DNA of 64,000 nucleotides from Pseudomonadota bacterium (GTDB lineage Bacteria > Pseudomonadota > Alphaproteobacteria > Rhizobiales > Pleomorphomonadaceae): NCBI GenBank assembly GCA_018262575.1, contig JAGSYU010000007.1, positions 1 through 64,000 on the forward strand, given 5' to 3'. Below the pieces are notes generated by a model. It was not told where the DNA came from. It was given only the letters and a program-made list of their open reading frames with translations, and did no database searches. The first letter of the stretch is position 1. The number at the start of each line of letters is the position of its first letter. The translations under genes and the position numbers were made by a program. This document shows, in pieces, positions 27,686 through 36,328 of this stretch.

Positions 27686-28405
27686 TCAGGCTGTCTCTGT
27701 TCGCTCGCCGTCGTCAAAATAGGTGCTCCAGAGCGCCTTTTCGCCGATGGTGGCGATGAAGGCGGCATGCGCCTGCGCTTCGAGGGGAGAAAGGCGCGGC
27801 GGCAGTGGCACGGGGCGCGGCCGAAGGGCGACGCGGCCGCCCGTTTCTCCTGACGTCGCCGATTGCACGGACACCGTAAGGTCGAGGCCGGCCTGCCGTC
27901 CGCCGGTCAGCTCGAGATAGACTTCGGCCAACAGTTCGGCGTCGAGCAGAGCACCATGCTTGACGCGCTTCGACCGGTCGATGCCATATCGGTTGCAGAG
28001 TGCATCCAGGCTGGCCGGTGCGCCTGGATGCTTGCGACGGGCCATCATCAGCGTGTCGACGACCCGTTCGGTTCCGAAGGTCAAGCGGCCCGTGGCCTTC
28101 AGCTCGTAGTTGACGAAGCCCATGTCGAAGCTGGCGTTGTGGGCAACCAACTGGGCGTCGCCAACGAAGGCAACAAAGGCGTCGGCAACATCGTCAAAGC
28201 GCGGCTTGTCGGCAAGGAATGCGTCGGACAGGCCATGGACGTCGAACGCCTCCTTGGGCACCGATCGACCTGGATTGATATAGACGTGGAAATTGCGGCC
28301 GGTCGGGAAACGGTTGACGACCTCGACGCAGCCGATCTCGACGAGGCGGTCGCCGGTCTTGGGGTCTAAGCCGGTGGTTTCTGTATCGAAGATGATTTCG
28401 CGCAT
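27686..28405 (-). CDS. dnaQ: DNA polymerase III epsilon subunit (3'-5' exonuclease)
   Basis: 239 residues. The DEDDh exonuclease motifs are complete: FDTETTGLDP (ExoI), LVAHNASFDMGFVNYEL (ExoII) and KHGALLDAELLAEVYLELTGG (ExoIII, with catalytic His). It proofreads for the replicative polymerase. The C-terminal tail (about 185-239) would bind the alpha subunit. The start at 28405 is set by the conserved MREIIFDTETTG. It is the last gene of the leftward origin-flanking run ppsR-maf-aroE-coaE-dnaQ. Confidence 0.95.
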   Translation of the reverse strand: MREIIFDTETTGLDPKTGDRLVEIGCVEVVNRFPTGRNFHVYINPGRSVPKEAFDVHGLSDAFLADKPRFDDVADAFVAFVGDAQLVAHNASFDMGFVNYELKATGRLTFGTERVVDTLMMARRKHPGAPASLDALCNRYGIDRSKRVKHGALLDAELLAEVYLELTGGRQAGLDLTVSVQSATSGETGGRVALRPRPVPLPPRLSPLEAQAHAAFIATIGEKALWSTYFDDGERTETA

Positions 28406-28473
28406 GGTCGAATCCTGCCTGCCGGCAAGACGGATTTCAAGGAAATCCGGCCCGCTTGTCCCCCGGCAATTGC

Positions 28474-29055
28474 TCAAGTCAGCAAATGACCGAGAAATGC
28501 GGCAACTGCCGCCCTGGCTGTCTCAAGGCCGTCGCCCGTCGGGATAACGAAATCGGCGCGTGCCCTTTTTTCAGCGTCGGACGTCTGACGGGCAAGGAGC
28601 GCTTCGAATTTATCTTCGGTCATGCCGGGCCGGGCGAGCACGCGCGCCCGCTGGACCTCGGCCGGTGCCGAGACGACCACCACCTTGTCGACATCGCGAT
28701 GACGGCCGGTTTCAAAGAGAAGGGGAATGTCGAGCACCACGGCGGACGCGTCGGCGGCGCGCGCCCGCTCGAGAAAATCGGCTTCTGCCCTCTGCACTGC
28801 CGGATGAACGATGGCTTCCAGCCGGCGGAACGCGTCGACATCGCCGGAAAGCCGTTCGGCGAGGCGGGCACGGTCCACCCGACCGTCCATGGTCGTACCG
28901 GGGAAAACTGCCTCAATCTCTGCGACAAGCGGGCCATCATACAGAGCGTGCACGGTGGCATCGGCATCGAACACCGGCAGACCGGCTTCCCGGAACAGGC
29001 CAGCAGTGGTGGTCTTGCCCATGCCGATCGAGCCAGTGAGACCGATGACGATCAC
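28474..29055 (-). CDS. coaE: Dephospho-CoA kinase
   Basis: 193 residues. The P-loop [21 protein letters not shown] lies at the N terminus; the substrate region [12 protein letters not shown] and lid [31 protein letters not shown] are typical of CoaE. It phosphorylates dephospho-CoA, the final step of coenzyme A synthesis. It overlaps the upstream aroE stop by 4 bases, so it is translationally coupled. Confidence 0.96.
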
Positions 29056-29870
29056 AGGTCGGCCTCGATTAACGCGCGAAGCTCGGCCGTCACCGTCGGC
29101 TGGCGGCCGAACCAGCGGGCAAAGCCGGGTACCGCTTGATGGAGCAACATGCCGAGGCCGTCCACGGTGCGCAGACCGCGCGTTGCAGCACCGGCCAGGA
29201 AGGGCGTCATGAGTGGCACGTAAACAATGTCGGTCACCACGGTGCTGCCCGGCACAACACGCATGTCGAGATCAATGGCACCGTCGCCCTTCATGCCTAA
29301 CGAGGTTGTGTTGACGATAAAACCGGCTGTTGCCGCATATCGATTCGCTTCCGAAAGGACGGCTGCGGACGCCCGGCCAGGATACCGGCCGGCCAGCGCT
29401 TCGGCGCGCGACAGCGTGCGATTGACGACCCGTACCGTGAAGCCACGGTCGACAAGAGCATCCACGACGGCAGAGGCGGCGCCACCGGCACCCAGCACCA
29501 GCGCTTCACCAGGCGCAGCGTCCCAGCCGGGAGCGCGCTCATCAAGATTGGCGACAAACCCGGTACCGTCGGTGTTGTCGGCGCAGAGCCTGCCATCTTC
29601 GACCCACAGCGTGTTGGCAGCGCCGATCCGCTCGACTACCGGCTCGCGGTGACTGGCGGCGCGCGCTGCAATCTCCTTGTAGGGAATGGTGACGTTGCCA
29701 CCAGCAAGGCCGCTGTCGGCGAAACCTTTGAAGAAGCCATCAATCCGGTCAGGTTCGATCGCCTGGCGGCCATAGGCGCCATCGATGCCGAATGTCGTTA
29801 GCCAATGGCCATGGATCAGCGGTGAGCGTGACTGGCTCACCGGCCACCCGATGACAGCAGCGCGGATCAT
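29052..29870 (-). CDS. aroE: Shikimate dehydrogenase
   Basis: 272 residues. The substrate-binding N-terminal half has [19 protein letters not shown] (SxS shikimate motif) and [15 protein letters not shown] with catalytic Lys. The NADP half has [20 protein letters not shown] (GAGGA) and [12 protein letters not shown]. It reduces 3-dehydroshikimate with NADPH in aromatic amino acid synthesis. It overlaps maf upstream and coaE downstream by 4 bases each. A copy of the origin-region 21-bp motif lies inside it at 29341-29361. Confidence 0.96.
29341..29361 (+). repeat. Origin-region 21-bp motif, copy 2
   Basis: Carries the exact core GATTCGCTTCCG followed by AAAGGACG. It lies within aroE on the opposite strand (encoding part of LSEANRY), about 2 kb left of oriC. 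Confidence 0.55.
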
Positions 29871-30454
29871 CCTTCGATCATCCTTTCCTCGCGCAGGAAT
29901 TCCAGCAGCGGCAGGAGCGGCAAGCCGAGAATGGTAAAGTGATCGCCCTCAACAGCCTCAAACAGCTGCACACCATAGCCTTCGAGCTGATAGGCGCCGA
30001 CAGACCCCAGCGCCGCTTCGCCGACCACGGCGAGATAGTGGCTGATAAAGCGCGTCGACAATGGCCGCATAGTCAGCCGGGCGCTATCGACAGCCCGATG
30101 CAGCACCTCGCCGTTGCGGGCAAGCGACAGGCCAGAATGGAGCACGTGCATGCGGCCGGAGAGCCGACCGAGCTGTCGGCCGGCTTCCTCGCGGTCGCGT
30201 GGCTTGTGGAAGCGTTCCTCACCCAGTGACAACGTCTGATCGGCGCCTATGACCAGGTCGCCCGGCCGACGTAGCGACACCTCGATCGCTTTGACATCGG
30301 CGAGTGCCTGCGCGACGTCTTCGGCGGAAAGGCCGATGAGGTCCTCTTCGACAACGCGCTCGTCGACGTCGGCCGGAATGCGCTTGAAGATCAGCCCGGC
30401 ACCGGTCAGGAGGGCGGCGCGAGCGGCGCTTGCTGAGGCAAGGACGAGGCTCAT
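29867..30454 (-). CDS. maf: Maf family nucleotide pyrophosphatase
   Basis: 195 residues. The N-terminal LVLASASAARAALLTGAGL is the Maf nucleotide site, followed by ADVDERVVEEDL and GADQTLSLGEERFHKP with the catalytic acidic residue. Maf proteins hydrolyse non-canonical or methylated NTPs; the detailed specificity (dTTP/UTP versus m7GTP) is not certain, though the sequence leans to the YceF type. It starts 3 bases after ppsR ends, in the conserved origin-flanking order ppsR-maf-aroE-coaE-dnaQ. Confidence 0.93.
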   Translation of the reverse strand: MSLVLASASAARAALLTGAGLIFKRIPADVDERVVEEDLIGLSAEDVAQALADVKAIEVSLRRPGDLVIGADQTLSLGEERFHKPRDREEAGRQLGRLSGRMHVLHSGLSLARNGEVLHRAVDSARLTMRPLSTRFISHYLAVVGEAALGSVGAYQLEGYGVQLFEAVEGDHFTILGLPLLPLLEFLREERMIEG

Positions 30455-30457
30455 CTT

Positions 30458-31315
30458 TCAACCAGCGTCAGAAAACGGATCAAGCACCTTGCCGTAGCGG
30501 TGTTGGTCCCACAGGGCGAGGATGGCGGCGGCGGTTTCTTCGATTGATCGGCGGGTGACGTCGATCATCGGCCAACCATGCTCCGTGCAGAGACGTTTGG
30601 AATAGAGGATCTCCTGGGCAATCGATGCCTTGTCGACATAGGTCGAATCCTGGCTCTTATCGGCAAGCGCCAGCAGACGATTCTGCCGGACATGCATGAT
30701 GCGCTCGGCGGTGGCGATCAGGCAGACCACCAGCGGCCGCCGGGCAGCAATCACCTTTTCAGCAATCAGGATGCCCGGCACCAGCGGCACATTGGCCGTG
30801 CGGATGCCACGATTGGCGAGATAAATGGACGTCGGCGTCTTCGAGGTGCGGCTGATGCCGATCAGGATGACGTCGGTTTCTTCGATATCGTCAGGCAAGG
30901 CGCCGTCATCATGGGCGAGCGTGAAGTTCAGCGCGTCGATGCGCTTGAAATAATCGGCGTCCATGGCGTGCTGGGCACCGGCCTTGCCGATCGCCTGCAC
31001 ATTGAAGAACGAGCGAAACACATCGAACACCGGGCGCAACACGTCGATGCAGGGAATGGCCGCCGCTTGGCAAGCCTCTTCGAGGCGGACAGCGAGATCC
31101 TGCTGCACCAGCGTGTAGAGGACGATACCTGGCGCCGCCTCGATGTCGGCAATGACACGCTCGATATGACGCACGGAGCGGACCAGCGGATAAATGTGTT
31201 CGATCGCCACCATCGATTCATATTGGGCGGTGGCCGCTCGACCAACAGCCAGTAGCGTTTCGCCAGTGGAGTCGGAAACGAGGTGAATATGGAAATAGGT
31301 CTGGCCGCGCTTCAT
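30458..31315 (-). CDS. ppsR: Bifunctional kinase-pyrophosphorylase (DUF299; PEP synthase/PPDK regulator)
   Basis: 285 residues of the DUF299 family. The start FHIHLVSDSTGETLLAVGRAA and the P-loop-like GISRTSKTPTSIYLANRG are diagnostic, with VIAERIM-like nucleotide contacts after it. The family phosphorylates a threonine of pyruvate phosphate dikinase or PEP synthase using ADP and removes it with phosphate. The target gene is not in this window. In Caulobacter and Rickettsia the homologue borders the chromosomal origin opposite hemE, and the same order is found here. Confidence 0.93.
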   Translation of the reverse strand: MKRGQTYFHIHLVSDSTGETLLAVGRAATAQYESMVAIEHIYPLVRSVRHIERVIADIEAAPGIVLYTLVQQDLAVRLEEACQAAAIPCIDVLRPVFDVFRSFFNVQAIGKAGAQHAMDADYFKRIDALNFTLAHDDGALPDDIEETDVILIGISRTSKTPTSIYLANRGIRTANVPLVPGILIAEKVIAARRPLVVCLIATAERIMHVRQNRLLALADKSQDSTYVDKASIAQEILYSKRLCTEHGWPMIDVTRRSIEETAAAILALWDQHRYGKVLDPFSDAG

Positions 31316-31393
31316 GGCCGGCGTGCTCCGAATGGAAGGCGGAGCAGCATCTCAGATGGCACCACGCTTGGCGAGTTCTTTTTTAGCGATTTT

Positions 31394-31406
31394 AATCAAT
31401 TACTTG
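31394..31406 (+). promoter_or_regulatory. IHF-binding consensus in oriC
   Basis: AATCAATTACTTG fits WATCAANNNNTTR at every defined position. IHF bending sites are a feature of the Caulobacter origin. Confidence 0.65.
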
Positions 31407-31424
31407 GCTTCCTCTCTCCTGTCG

Positions 31425-31433
31425 CTGTCCACA
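31425..31433 (+). promoter_or_regulatory. Weak DnaA-box-like 9-mer
   Basis: CTGTCCACA, two differences from TTATCCACA. Listed because it falls in the origin gap near other boxes. Confidence 0.35.
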
Positions 31434-31458
31434 ACTGGTCGCCTCAAACGTGGATGGG

Positions 31459-31467
31459 CGTGGACAA
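31459..31467 (-). promoter_or_regulatory. Weak DnaA-box-like 9-mer
   Basis: CGTGGACAA on the plus strand, two differences from the complement TGTGGATAA. Confidence 0.35.
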
Positions 31468-31500
31468 AAGGGGCCTGGAAAGTCACCTCCGACTGCCCCC

Positions 31501-31509
31501 TGTGGGTAA
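31501..31509 (-). promoter_or_regulatory. DnaA box (8 of 9)
   Basis: TGTGGGTAA is one base from TGTGGATAA, the complement of the DnaA box TTATCCACA. Confidence 0.55.
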
Positions 31510-31569
31510 GCCTGAAATCCGTCAACAGGCGGGCGAAAATGGCCTCGTCCTAACGGCTCCTGTGGGCAC

Positions 31570-31578
31570 TGTGCAAAA
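31570..31578 (-). promoter_or_regulatory. DnaA box (relaxed consensus)
   Basis: TGTGCAAAA is the complement of TTTTGCACA, which fits TTWTNCACA exactly. Confidence 0.55.
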
Positions 31579-31591
31579 GCGACGCTGGCGC

Positions 31592-31606
31592 TTAACCATT
31601 CATTAA
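31592..31606 (+). promoter_or_regulatory. CtrA-binding box 1
   Basis: TTAACCATTCATTAA is a full TTAA-N7-TTAA CtrA site. The second box 35 bases on differs from it at one position. Confidence 0.65.
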
Positions 31607-31626
31607 CTCTTCGCCAGTCATCCCCA

Positions 31627-31641
31627 TTAACCTTTCATTAA
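31627..31641 (+). promoter_or_regulatory. CtrA-binding box 2
   Basis: TTAACCTTTCATTAA is a full TTAA-N7-TTAA CtrA site in the same orientation as box 1. Confidence 0.65.
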
Positions 31642-31670
31642 GAATTGCGGCATTCCGCCATCCGTTAAAG

Positions 31671-31679
31671 TTTTCCACA
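31671..31679 (+). promoter_or_regulatory. DnaA box (relaxed consensus)
   Basis: TTTTCCACA fits TTWTNCACA and differs from TTATCCACA at one base. The identical 9-mer recurs beside the perfect parS at 36478-36486. Confidence 0.6.
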
Positions 31680-31847
31680 AAAGCCACAGGCTGGTGGCTT
31701 CGATCCGCCCAGCGTCGGTAGCCGAGAACCTCTCGTATGGTTCGGATTGTGGAGGAACGACAATCCCTGCTATCCCTCGCCTATAAGAAAAAGAAAGACT
31801 CTCTAAATAGGATTCTTACCTTGGAAACGGCGACCGGCGCGACCACG

Positions 31848-32897
31848 ATGAAGGCTGGTAAAGCGACGAGCGAACGTCGCCTCCTCAGGGTCCTCGATGG
31901 CGAGATACTCTGGCCCCCACCGGTCTGGATGATGCGCCAAGCCGGTCGCTATCTTCCCGAGTATCGGGCGACGCGGGCGAAAGCAGGTTCGTTCCTCGAT
32001 CTCTGCTATGCGCCCGCTCTTGCGACCGAGGTGACGCTGCAGCCGATCCGTCGCTTCGGCTTCGACGCAGCGATCCTGTTCTCCGATATCCTGGTCATGC
32101 CCCACGCTCTCGGCCAGAAGGTGTGGTTCGTCGAAGGTGAGGGTCCGCGGCTCGAGCCGATTGACCTTGGTCGTCTTGATCTTGACCCGGATCGTGTTTT
32201 GCCGCGGCTCGAACCGGTCATCGAGGCGGTGGCTGGCATCCGGGCGAAGCTCCCTGAGGAGACGGCACTCCTTGGCTTCTGCGGGGCACCCTGGACGCTG
32301 ATCACCTACATGATTGCCGGCCGGGGCACGCCGGATCAGATGCCGGCGCGACGGGCGGTTTTTGCCGATCCCAACGGTATCGACCGCCTGGTCGATATCT
32401 TGGTGGCGGCATCGATTGATTATCTCGTTGCCCAGCTCAGGGCTGGTGCCGATGCGGTGCAGATCTTCGATACCTGGGCCGGCGGGCTTGACGATGCCGG
32501 CTTTTGCCGTCTGGTGATCGAACCGACTCGACGCATTGTCGAGGGTGTTCGCGCTAAGGTACCGGGTGCGCGAATAATCGGTTTTCCGAAAGGGGCAGGC
32601 GGACATCTGCCGGCCTTTGTGCGGCAGACGGGGGTCGATGCTGTCGGTGTCGACTGGCAAGCCTCGCTTGATTTTGTCCGAGATGCCGTGCAGCCGCTCG
32701 CCGCCGTACAGGGCAATCTCGACCCGCTGCATCTGATTACCGGAGGGGACGCGCTTGACACCGCCGTCGATCGCATCCTCGATCGACTTGGCAAGGGAAG
32801 GTTGGTTTTCAACCTTGGACACGGCATCACGCCGGATGGATTGATTGACAACGTCGCGCGCATGCTGGCTCGGGTGCGCGGGGCCGGAGGGCGGTGA
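31848..32897 (+). CDS. hemE: Uroporphyrinogen decarboxylase
   Basis: 349 residues. Diagnostic segments are [21 protein letters not shown] (N-terminal signature with substrate arginines), [20 protein letters not shown] (active-site Asp), [18 protein letters not shown] (second signature) and FNLGHGI near the end. It converts uroporphyrinogen III to coproporphyrinogen III in haem synthesis. The ATG at 31848 is preferred by family length; an in-frame TTG at 31821 and GTG/ATG codons further up would add a basic leader inside the origin. The stop overlaps the hemJ start (TGATG). Confidence 0.95.
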
Positions 32898-33331
32898 TGG
32901 GCCTTGCCTATGAGTGGATCAAGATCGGTCACCTGTTTTCGGTGATCGCTTGGATGGCCGGTATTTTCTATTTGCCGCGTCTTTTCGTCTACCACGCCGA
33001 CGCCGTGGCCGGCTCGGTACAGTCTGAAACCTTCAAGGTGATGGAACGCCGGCTCCTCAAGGGAATCATGCGGCCGGCCATGTATGGCACCTGGGGGTTT
33101 GGCTTTTGGCTCGGTCTGAAGGGGGGATGGTTTGTTGGCGTCTCCTGGCTGTGGCTGAAGCTTCTTTTTGTGCTTGGCCTCACCGTTTATCACTATCAGC
33201 TTGATGCTTGGCGCAAGGCCTTCGCACAAGACGCCAACCGGCACGCCTCGCGCTTCTTCCGGATGATGAACGAGCTGCCGACACTGCTGTTGTTCGCCAT
33301 TCTGGTGCTGGTGGTCGTGAAGCCGTTCTGA
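32897..33331 (+). CDS. hemJ: Protoporphyrinogen IX oxidase HemJ
   Basis: 144 residues with four membrane helices. The N-terminal KIGHLFSVIAWMAGIFYLPRLFVYH carries the conserved histidines of HemJ, and ERRLLKGIMRPAM and YHYQLDAWRKAFAQ are also characteristic. HemJ is a membrane haem-containing enzyme that oxidises protoporphyrinogen IX to protoporphyrin IX. The start overlaps the hemE stop by one base, so haem genes are coupled. The alternative in-frame GTG at 32894 adds one residue only. Confidence 0.92.
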   Translation: MGLAYEWIKIGHLFSVIAWMAGIFYLPRLFVYHADAVAGSVQSETFKVMERRLLKGIMRPAMYGTWGFGFWLGLKGGWFVGVSWLWLKLLFVLGLTVYHYQLDAWRKAFAQDANRHASRFFRMMNELPTLLLFAILVLVVVKPF

Positions 33332-33513
33332 GGGTGGTCGGCCGGCGAGAATAGCCTGCCGGCTTGCCGCGCCGGATGGAACAGAGTATAGCGAACGTCG
33401 TCCCTCACTTCGCGGGCAGGCGTCTTTCGGACGAGAAGTCCGGAAAGGTCTTCCTGTGGCGGCTCCCCGCCGTCACTGCCAGCTCGCGTCTTTCGGAAAA
33501 GATCATCGATGCG

Positions 33514-33541
33514 TATCCCCACAAGGGGAGCTTTGTCTTTT
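33514..33541 (+). other. Small hairpin with T-rich tail in the rho leader
   Basis: TCCCC (33516-33520) pairs with GGGGA (33525-33529) and is followed by GCTTTGTCTTTT. It could be a weak attenuator of rho; the stem is only 5 bp. Confidence 0.25.
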
Positions 33542-33582
33542 CGATCTCATTTCCATTTTTCCAGCCAAGAGATGCCTCGTCC

Positions 33583-34848
33583 ATGTCGGAGATGAAACTC
33601 CAGGATCTCAAGAAAAAGACCCCCACCGAACTTCTGGCCGTCGCCGAGGAGGTCGAGGTAGAGAACGCCTCGACCATGCGCAAACAGGAACTGCTGTTTG
33701 CCATCCTGAAGCAGCTTGCCGACCAGGAGGTCGAGATCATCGGCGAGGGCGTCGTCGAAGTGCTGCAAGACGGTTTCGGTTTCCTGCGCTCGCCCGACGC
33801 CAACTATCTGCCGGGTCCCGACGACATCTACATTTCGCCGGCACAGATCCGCCGCTTTTCGCTCAGGACCGGCGACACTGTCGAAGGACAGATCCGCAGC
33901 CCAAAAGAGGGGGAGCGCTATTTTGCGCTGCTCAAGGTCAACACCGTCAATTTCGAGGACCCGGAGAAGGCGCGCCACAAGGTGCACTTCGACAACCTGA
34001 CGCCGCTCTATCCTGACGAGCGCTTCCGCATGGAAGTCGAGGGCGTGCCGTCGAAGGATTTTTCGGCCCGCGTCATCGATATCGTGGCGCCGCTCGGCAA
34101 GGGCCAGCGTGCGCTGATCGTGGCGCCGCCGCGGACCGGCAAGACGGTGCTGTTGCAGAACATCGCCCACTCGATCACGTCCAACCACCCGGAATGCTAC
34201 CTGATCGTCCTGCTGATCGACGAGCGCCCGGAAGAGGTGACCGACATGCAGCGCTCGGTGCGGGGTGAGGTGGTGTCCTCCACCTTCGACGAGCCGGCGA
34301 CGCGTCACGTTCAGGTGGCGGAAATGGTCATCGAGAAGGCCAAGCGTCTGGTTGAGCATGGCCGCGACGTCGTTATCCTGCTCGATTCGATTACCCGCCT
34401 CGGCCGTGCCTACAACACGGTGGTTCCATCTTCCGGCAAAGTGCTGACCGGCGGTGTCGACGCCAACGCGTTGCAGCGGCCCAAGCGCTTCTTCGGCGCC
34501 GCCCGTAACATTGAGCAAGGCGGTTCGCTGACCATCATTGCCACGGCGCTGATCGACACCGGCAGTCGCATGGACGAGGTGATCTTCGAAGAGTTCAAAG
34601 GTACCGGCAACTCTGAAATCATCCTTGACCGCAAGATCTCCGACAAGCGTGTGTTCCCGGCGATCGATATCCAGCGCTCCGGCACCCGCAAGGAAGACCT
34701 GCTGGTGGTTCCGGACAAGCTCAAGAAAACCTTTGTGCTCCGGCGTATCCTCAATCCGATGGGGACCACCGACGCCACGGAGTTCCTGCTGGACAAGCTT
34801 CGGCAGACGCGGACCAACAGCGATTTCTTCGATTCCATGAACACCTGA
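33583..34848 (+). CDS. rho: Transcription termination factor Rho
   Basis: 421 residues. The N-terminal domain ([34 protein letters not shown]) and the RNA-binding cold-shock-like domain ([37 protein letters not shown]) are followed by the hexameric ATPase: Walker [18 protein letters not shown], Walker [17 protein letters not shown], and the Q/R loops through [22 protein letters not shown]. It is an RNA-dependent helicase ending transcription. The ATG at 33583 gives the standard length; the 251-bp leader has no other gene. Confidence 0.97.
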
Positions 34849-34859
34849 CAGCGCGCCGG

Positions 34860-34875
34860 TGTTTCACGTGAATCA
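34860..34875. promoter_or_regulatory. parS site 1 (15 of 16)
   Basis: TGTTTCACGTGAATCA differs from the ParB centromere consensus TGTTTCACGTGAAACA at one base. It begins 12 bases after the rho stop. A copy of the 21-bp origin motif follows 13 bases later. Confidence 0.85.
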
Positions 34876-34887
34876 GTGACCGCCGAT

Positions 34888-34908
34888 CGATTCGCTTCCG
34901 TTCCGCAT
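34888..34908 (+). repeat. Origin-region 21-bp motif, copy 3
   Basis: Exact core GATTCGCTTCCG in the rho-mnmE spacer, 12 bases downstream of parS site 1. Confidence 0.6.
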
Positions 34909-34924
34909 CAGGACAACACGACAG

Positions 34925-34943
34925 AGGGCCCCACTGGGGCCCT
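34925..34943. terminator. Stem-loop in the rho-mnmE spacer
   Basis: A perfect 8-bp stem AGGGCCCC/GGGGCCCT with an ACT loop. No T tract follows, so it is at most a weak terminator or RNA-end protector. Confidence 0.4.
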
Positions 34944-35029
34944 TCGCCATTTCAGACCCGTGACCAAGCTCTCCCCGGGCGCGTCGTGATGAGCTGCCCG
35001 AAGTCGCAAGCTTGCTGAAGGATTGAGTC

Positions 35030-36328
35030 GTGGCCGATACGATCTTTGCGGTGTCGTCAGGTGCCCTGCCAAGCGGAGTAGCCGTACTGCGCGTGTCAGG
35101 TCCCGCCGTTCGATTCACACTCGAAACGACGATCGGCGGCCAGCCAGTACCGCGCCGCGCCGCGCTGACGACGATTCGCGGGGCGGCCGGCGAAGTGATC
35201 GACCGCGGCCTGGTGCTGTTCTTTCCGGGACCCAGCAGCTTTACCGGCGAGGACGTGGCCGAATTCCATCTGCATGGTGGCCGCGCCGTGGTGGCCGCCT
35301 TTCTGGCTTTCCTTGGGAGCTTGCCGGGACTGAGGTTGGCCGAGGCCGGCGAATTCACCCGTCGGGCTTTTGAGAATGGCCGGCTCGATCTGACGGAAGC
35401 CGAAGGACTTGCCGACCTGATTGCCGCCGAGACGGACGCTCAACGGCGACAAGCCTTACGTCTTGCCGGAGGCGCATTCCGCGCGCGGGCGGAGGACTGG
35501 CGGCGGCGCCTCGTCGACCTCCGTGCACACATTGAGGCCGACCTCGACTTTTCCGATGAACAGGATGTTCCGGAGGACATCTCGGCCGACCTTGGTAAAG
35601 GCATTGCCGGGTTGCTGGCGGAGATGGAACGCGAACTCCTGGCCGGCCGACGGGGTGAACGCGTTCGTGACGGTTTTGACGTGGTGGTGCTTGGCGCGCC
35701 AAATGCCGGCAAGTCCAGTCTCGTGAATGCTATGGCCGAACGCGATGTCGCCATCGTCACCGATATTCCCGGCACTACCCGGGACCTTTTGGAAGTTCGC
35801 CTTGATCTTGGTGGCTATGCGGTAACTCTGGTCGACACCGCCGGGATCAGAGAGGGTGGCGACGTCATTGAAGCGGAAGGCATGCGACGGGGCCGCGCAC
35901 GCGCTGCAGCAGCTGATCTCATCCTGTGGCTCGACGAGGGTGGTGGCGACCCGCCTGGGGAGATGACCGCGCTTGGTGTTCCGGTCCTCACCCTCCGGAC
36001 AAAAGCCGATCTGGAGCCGGTTGGCGGCGCGGCGCCAGCGATATCGGTTTATGACCGCGCATCGATCAACTGGCTTCTCGACCGTCTATCGCGGGAGGCT
36101 GCTGATCGACTTGGTGGCGAAGCGCCGCTGGTCAGCCGAATGCGTCAGCGACAGTGTCTTGAACGGGCGGCTGAGGCGTTGAGGGAGGCGCAATCGCCGG
36201 GCTTGCCTGGCGAGGTTGTTGCGGACCGGTTGCGTCAGGCGGGAGATGCGATGGGCCGGTTGACCGGTCGCATTGACGTTGAAGAGGTTCTTGGCTCGAT
36301 ATTCTCGACCTTTTGCATCGGTAAGTGA
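35030..36328 (+). CDS. mnmE: tRNA uridine-5-carboxymethylaminomethyl GTPase MnmE
   Basis: 432 residues from a GTG start. The formyl-THF-binding N-terminal domain (DTIFAVSSGALPSGVAVLRVSG; FTGEDVAEFHLHGGRAVVAAFL; AGEFTRRAFENGRLDLTEAEGLADLI) precedes a helical domain with an inserted G domain: VVVLGAPNAGKSSLVNAM (P-loop), DIPGTTRDLLEV, VDTAGIREG, and TKAD. The C terminus is FCIGK with the catalytic Cys. With MnmG it modifies the wobble uridine of tRNAs. A parS site and a 21-bp motif lie in the spacer on each side. Confidence 0.96.
   Translation: MADTIFAVSSGALPSGVAVLRVSGPAVRFTLETTIGGQPVPRRAALTTIRGAAGEVIDRGLVLFFPGPSSFTGEDVAEFHLHGGRAVVAAFLAFLGSLPGLRLAEAGEFTRRAFENGRLDLTEAEGLADLIAAETDAQRRQALRLAGGAFRARAEDWRRRLVDLRAHIEADLDFSDEQDVPEDISADLGKGIAGLLAEMERELLAGRRGERVRDGFDVVVLGAPNAGKSSLVNAMAERDVAIVTDIPGTTRDLLEVRLDLGGYAVTLVDTAGIREGGDVIEAEGMRRGRARAAAADLILWLDEGGGDPPGEMTALGVPVLTLRTKADLEPVGGAAPAISVYDRASINWLLDRLSREAADRLGGEAPLVSRMRQRQCLERAAEALREAQSPGLPGEVVADRLRQAGDAMGRLTGRIDVEEVLGSIFSTFCIGK

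Follow-up and report, generated by a model that had tools for sequence, protein, structure and literature searches.

Two TTAA-N7-TTAA motifs in the gap between ppsR and hemE of a Pleomorphomonas genome are well supported as CtrA boxes at the chromosomal origin because sequence, conservation and genomic context all point the same way. Both 15-mers lie in the window (the whole 64-kb stretch of DNA analyzed), differ from one another by one base, share a strand and are offset by 35 bp from start to start; the coordinates, orientation, single-base difference and offset given in an earlier, sequence-only reading of this DNA were all exact. The pair sits in a divergent intergenic region; the hemE ATG lies approximately 207 bp downstream of it, and on the other side it is 277 bp upstream of ppsR. 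Features of the region are collected in Table 1.

Table 1. Annotated features in and around the ppsR-hemE gap, with positions in the window
Feature	Position	Strand	Basis or remark
ppsR homologue (COG1806/DUF299), origin-gap flank	30458..31315	-	NF003742 above cut-off
DnaA box TTACCCACA	31501..31509	-	One mismatch to TTATCCACA; conserved block in genus alignment
DnaA-like box TTTTGCACA, 5' of box 1	31570..31578	-	Within left arm of the inverted repeat around the pair
CtrA box 1 (predicted), TTAACCATTCATTAA	31592..31606	+	TTAA-N7-TTAA match; genus conservation
DnaA-like site TCATCCCCA, abuts box 2	31618..31626	+	TCATCCACA in relative G383, a deep genus member
CtrA box 2 (predicted), TTAACCTTTCATTAA	31627..31641	+	TTAA-N7-TTAA match; genus conservation
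DnaA box TTTTCCACA, 29 bp 3' of box 2	31671..31679	+	Sequence match; genus alignment
Conserved origin-gap element ATTGTGGA-N9-ATCCCTGCTATCC	31746..31775	+	Unchanged or almost unchanged across the family
AT-rich stretch (65% AT), candidate unwinding element	31776..31815	.	GANTC sites start at 31797 and 31811
hemE, origin-gap flank	31848..32897	+	TIGR01464 above cut-off; possible earlier TTG start at 31821

The ppsR-hemE gap as candidate chromosomal origin

The gap extends from 31316 to 31847 (532 bp), with ppsR on the minus strand and hemE on the plus strand. The mapped Caulobacter origin (Cori) occupies the gap between hemE and COG1806 (PMC1914354), and the candidate origin gap has the same arrangement, with hemE on one side and the COG1806/ppsR homologue on the other. 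For hemE itself, TTG 31821 or ATG 31848 is the likelier start, and ATG 31737 is unlikely because some relatives carry an in-frame stop there.

Cumulative GC skew across the window had a broad minimum at 24.5–32.5 kb, with the lowest point at 26.5 kb, so the gap is not pinned by skew alone. In relative G307, a single contig that was sampled in 20-kb pieces, skew was negative or near zero to ~600 kb and then mostly positive for several megabases, with a less tidy far end; the turn to positive values fell at ~601 kb and hemE lies at 605 kb, which places the sign change within about 5 kb of hemE. The gap contains DnaA-like boxes and an AT-rich stretch, and parts of it are AT-richer than the genome; GC content is about 60% in 2-kb windows around it. 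Taken together, skew, the DnaA-like boxes, the AT-rich stretch and the family-conserved element support the origin assignment well, and we regard positions 31316–31847 as the probable chromosomal origin and infer its exact position from these features. The sequence-only reading had placed the boxes inside the origin; the gap shared with Cori, the skew, the DnaA-like boxes and the AT-rich stretch all agree with this.

The ATTGTGGA-N9-ATCCCTGCTATCC element is a possible core origin signature, and several families besides this one carry a related version of it, ATCCCGGTAATCC. Two GANTC (CcrM) sites, at 31797 and 31811, were seen within or beside the AT-rich stretch near hemE. A search of the gap for IHF sites returned one WATCAANNNNTTR match at about 31394, distant from the CtrA boxes, and neither a sigma-70 promoter nor a terminator was found in the gap. 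An RNA element was ruled out, with no Rfam match within 28000–36000 of the window.

Rarity of the motif and its other locations in the genome

The host genome is an incomplete draft of 4.40 Mb in 295 contigs and is 86% complete. TTAA-N7-TTAA was matched three times in the 64-kb window, against 0 expected from dinucleotide shuffles, and 22 times in the 4.40-Mb draft, against 12 for a reversed control pattern. Two TTAAC-N6-TTAA boxes at a separation of 5–35 bp occur at one place in the draft genome, which is the pair described here. If all 22 genomic sites are taken as intergenic, and the intergenic fraction is assumed to be 12% of the genome, the gap would be expected to hold 0.022 sites and the probability of finding two there is ~2e-4.

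An identical copy of the box 1 15-mer is located 98 bp upstream of flgB, and the motif was also found upstream of flhA and of an ftsE-like gene (an ABC-ATPase in the ftsE position beside a zinc-ribbon gene). CtrA targets flagellar genes in every order that has been studied (PMC8116508), and ftsE is one of its targets in Brucella (PMC2877005). Because it recurs upstream of these three genes, the motif is very probably the CtrA box of the host genome. Other sites lie by a HAMP/4HB receptor fragment, a murein endopeptidase and an outer-membrane efflux gene, and further genomic matches are by genes without a known CtrA link; therefore, not every match is a CtrA target. The genome encodes a CtrA protein with 85% identity to that of Caulobacter, as well as ChpT and GcrA, and it was on these three proteins that CtrA and its phosphorelay were judged to be encoded.

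Conservation of the pair in the genus and family

The sequence-only reading counted a lack of conservation in close relatives among its grounds for refutation, and this check did not refute it. The organism is a Pleomorphomonas or a very near relative, and in the 14 sampled genomes of its genus both boxes were kept in all 14, each with at least 7 of 8 half-site bases and always 35 bp apart. Eight of the 14 have both boxes perfect; in the rest, a single half-site base differs in one box or in each of the two. Identity in the genus alignment was 0.969 for the 16 TTAA columns, 0.913 for the N7 columns and 0.765 for the remaining gap, and none of 20,000 random column draws matched the value of 0.969. 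By this alignment, both boxes are under constraint within a fast-changing gap.

None of the five other genera sampled in the family (f1) has a perfect box before hemE, which rules out the exact pair as a feature of the whole family. The simpler local reading of these sequences is that the pair was gained within f1 on the genus stem, because perfect boxes are missing before hemE in the five other genera.

DnaA-like sites around the pair

By sequence match, DnaA-like sites adjoin the CtrA boxes. TCATCCCCA contains TCCCCA, the core of the Caulobacter W-box. Wherever box 2 is perfect in the genus, TTTTCCACA begins 29 bp beyond it, with G203 carrying the form TTATCCACA. The CtrA pair is bracketed by the two 20-bp arms of an imperfect inverted repeat (CCTGTGGGCACTGTGCAAAA and TTTTCCACAAAAGCCACAGG, at 31559–31578 and 31671–31690, respectively), and these arms hold DnaA-like boxes. 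Because the DnaA-like boxes are imperfect matches to the E. coli consensus, their role is presumed. A small palindrome, GCGG-CATT-CCGC (31648–31659), is located between box 2 and TTTTCCACA, and most of the genus retains it. Cori has weak W-boxes and G-boxes, and its G-boxes adjoin CtrA sites (PMC4468827).

Predicted CtrA boxes before hemE across the Hyphomicrobiales

For the order and the family together, HemE places came from as many as 169 genomes, and the DNA before hemE was read in 143 of these. TTAA-N7-TTAA was present before hemE in 63 of the 143 genomes, representing 19 of 43 family codes. Family counts are the safer measure because genomes within a genus are related to one another. Spacers of 0–6 and 8–15 produced matches in 0–6 genomes and 0–5 families each, and other AT tetramers at spacer 7 were found in 2–7 genomes each. 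Across 104 gaps there were 49 sites, compared with 2.5 expected at each genome's own rate when all genomic sites are assumed to be intergenic. The motif is present in the origin gap beyond chance, and it is conserved there. Chance AT-richness as the source of the boxes was ruled out by the spacer and tetramer controls and by the comparison with genome rates.

Double boxes upstream of hemE recur, with other spacings, in families f22, f27, f44 and f6, and about 20 families have a site before hemE once the double-box families are added. The box is present in the gap before hemE in the named Methylobacterium loci. It was found at none of 13 named Rhizobiaceae loci, in agreement with the published results for Sinorhizobium and Brucella. 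Family f44 also has, at a place other than upstream of hemE, a conserved double CtrA box with starts 23 bp apart (loci L110-L111, L113-L122 and L124-L125, some twelve genomes from a single genus), and a conserved TTAACGATGTCTTAAC...TTAACAGGAGATTAA pair was seen in eight genomes of one genus in family f19.

The distance from box to hemE varies widely across families. Measured from the conserved gap element, the box tends to occupy a similar place within a family but not from one family to another. A homologous box position across families was ruled out by the differing distances to this element. On a tree built from PpsR and HemE only (129 rows, 335 columns and many weak branches), the box trait needs at least 22 changes, 11 of which are forced by well-supported branches; shuffled labels gave a mean of 42. 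Our reading is that boxes have been gained, lost or shifted repeatedly across the order, and it is possible that an old CtrA link was kept through turnover of its sites. The suggestion in the sequence-only reading that control was retained or regained is partly resolved by these data, with a local gain as the simpler reading within family f1.

Comparison with known origins

Cori of Caulobacter crescentus has the same hemE and COG1806 flanks, the same TTAA-N7-TTAA consensus and CtrA sites beside weak DnaA sites (PMC1914354; PMC4468827). It has five CtrA sites, whereas the candidate origin described here is predicted from sequence and has two perfect boxes, 35 bp apart, around one DnaA-like site. 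Because the family's other sampled genera lack the Pleomorphomonas pair, it is probably a separate gain. Rickettsia prowazekii and Wolbachia likewise have hemE-flanked origins with predicted CtrA and DnaA sites (PMC1914354), but they are intracellular bacteria of another order, and chance sites arise more easily in their origins because these are strongly AT-rich; here, GC content around the gap is ~60% and sites are rare genome-wide. In Hyphomonas neptunium, a budding alphaproteobacterium, a CtrA ChIP-seq peak lies beside the chromosomal origin (PMC7200025). That species is a close relative of Caulobacter outside the Hyphomicrobiales and its evidence comes from ChIP, whereas ours comes from the DNA sequence.

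Sinorhizobium meliloti and Brucella abortus belong to the same order, and both have an essential CtrA with a link to the cell cycle. They differ at the origin, which in S. meliloti has no CtrA motif and is unbound by CtrA (PMC4433202), and which in B. abortus is not bound by CtrA according to work cited in PMC2877005. The remark in the sequence-only reading that origin-bound CtrA is not generally reported for well-studied Hyphomicrobiales was right for these two species. A search of the open-access literature found no earlier report of CtrA at Hyphomicrobiales origins.

Possible action of CtrA at the origin

By analogy with Caulobacter, we think it probable that phosphorylated CtrA excludes DnaA at this oriC, and we infer both the binding and its effect. 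The two boxes would form a CtrA operator built into the chromosomal origin, and phosphorylated CtrA dimers would occupy both of them. Bound CtrA would then cover the DnaA-like site wedged between the boxes (31618–31626) and would probably interfere with the DnaA boxes that flank the pair, with the result that the DnaA initiation complex would be blocked until CtrA is dephosphorylated or degraded. Steric exclusion of DnaA is the simplest mechanism proposed for the five CtrA sites of Cori (PMC4468827; PMC1914354). When Cori lacks CtrA binding, replication is only mildly perturbed in the laboratory (PMC4468827); therefore, the effect of CtrA at the candidate origin could be small.

CtrA might instead act here mainly on transcription of hemE (or ppsR) and not on replication, although we consider this unlikely. 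In Caulobacter, CtrA represses a hemE promoter inside Cori, and the boxes described here are in a divergent intergenic region at distances of ~207 bp from the hemE ATG and 277 bp from ppsR. The search for a sigma-70-type promoter in the gap was negative, however, and no obvious CtrA-type -10 element follows either box; furthermore, the geometry that is fixed is the one with the DnaA-like boxes, whereas the distance between box and hemE varies across families. Somewhat less probable again is that the role of CtrA is positive or one of fine-tuning (through promoted origin transcription or stress-adjusted initiation, for example) and not that of a silencer. A review lists activation of transcription among the ways in which CtrA might act at Cori and reports that the CtrA sites there are most important when nutrients are combined with antibiotic (PMC4468827), but a DnaA-like site wedged between the two boxes fits exclusion better.

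That some factor other than CtrA binds the boxes, or that they are AT-rich origin sequence that arose by chance, is very improbable. Such an explanation could draw on the AT-richer parts of the gap and on the fact that CtrA binding is predicted only, but the enrichment is limited to a spacer of 7 and to TTAA halves, the identical 15-mer precedes flgB, and both boxes are under constraint.

Strongly enriched and correctly spaced sites in about 20 sampled families, together with the well-conserved Pleomorphomonas double site, stand against none in the sampled Rhizobiaceae. With these contrasts, gain and loss of direct replication control by a cell-cycle regulator can be put to a comparative test inside one order, with lineages on both sides. 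We lean slightly towards a view in which CtrA commonly controls the origin directly across the Hyphomicrobiales, its sites turn over fast from one family to the next, and the exceptions are the rhizobial models that underlie the opposite view.
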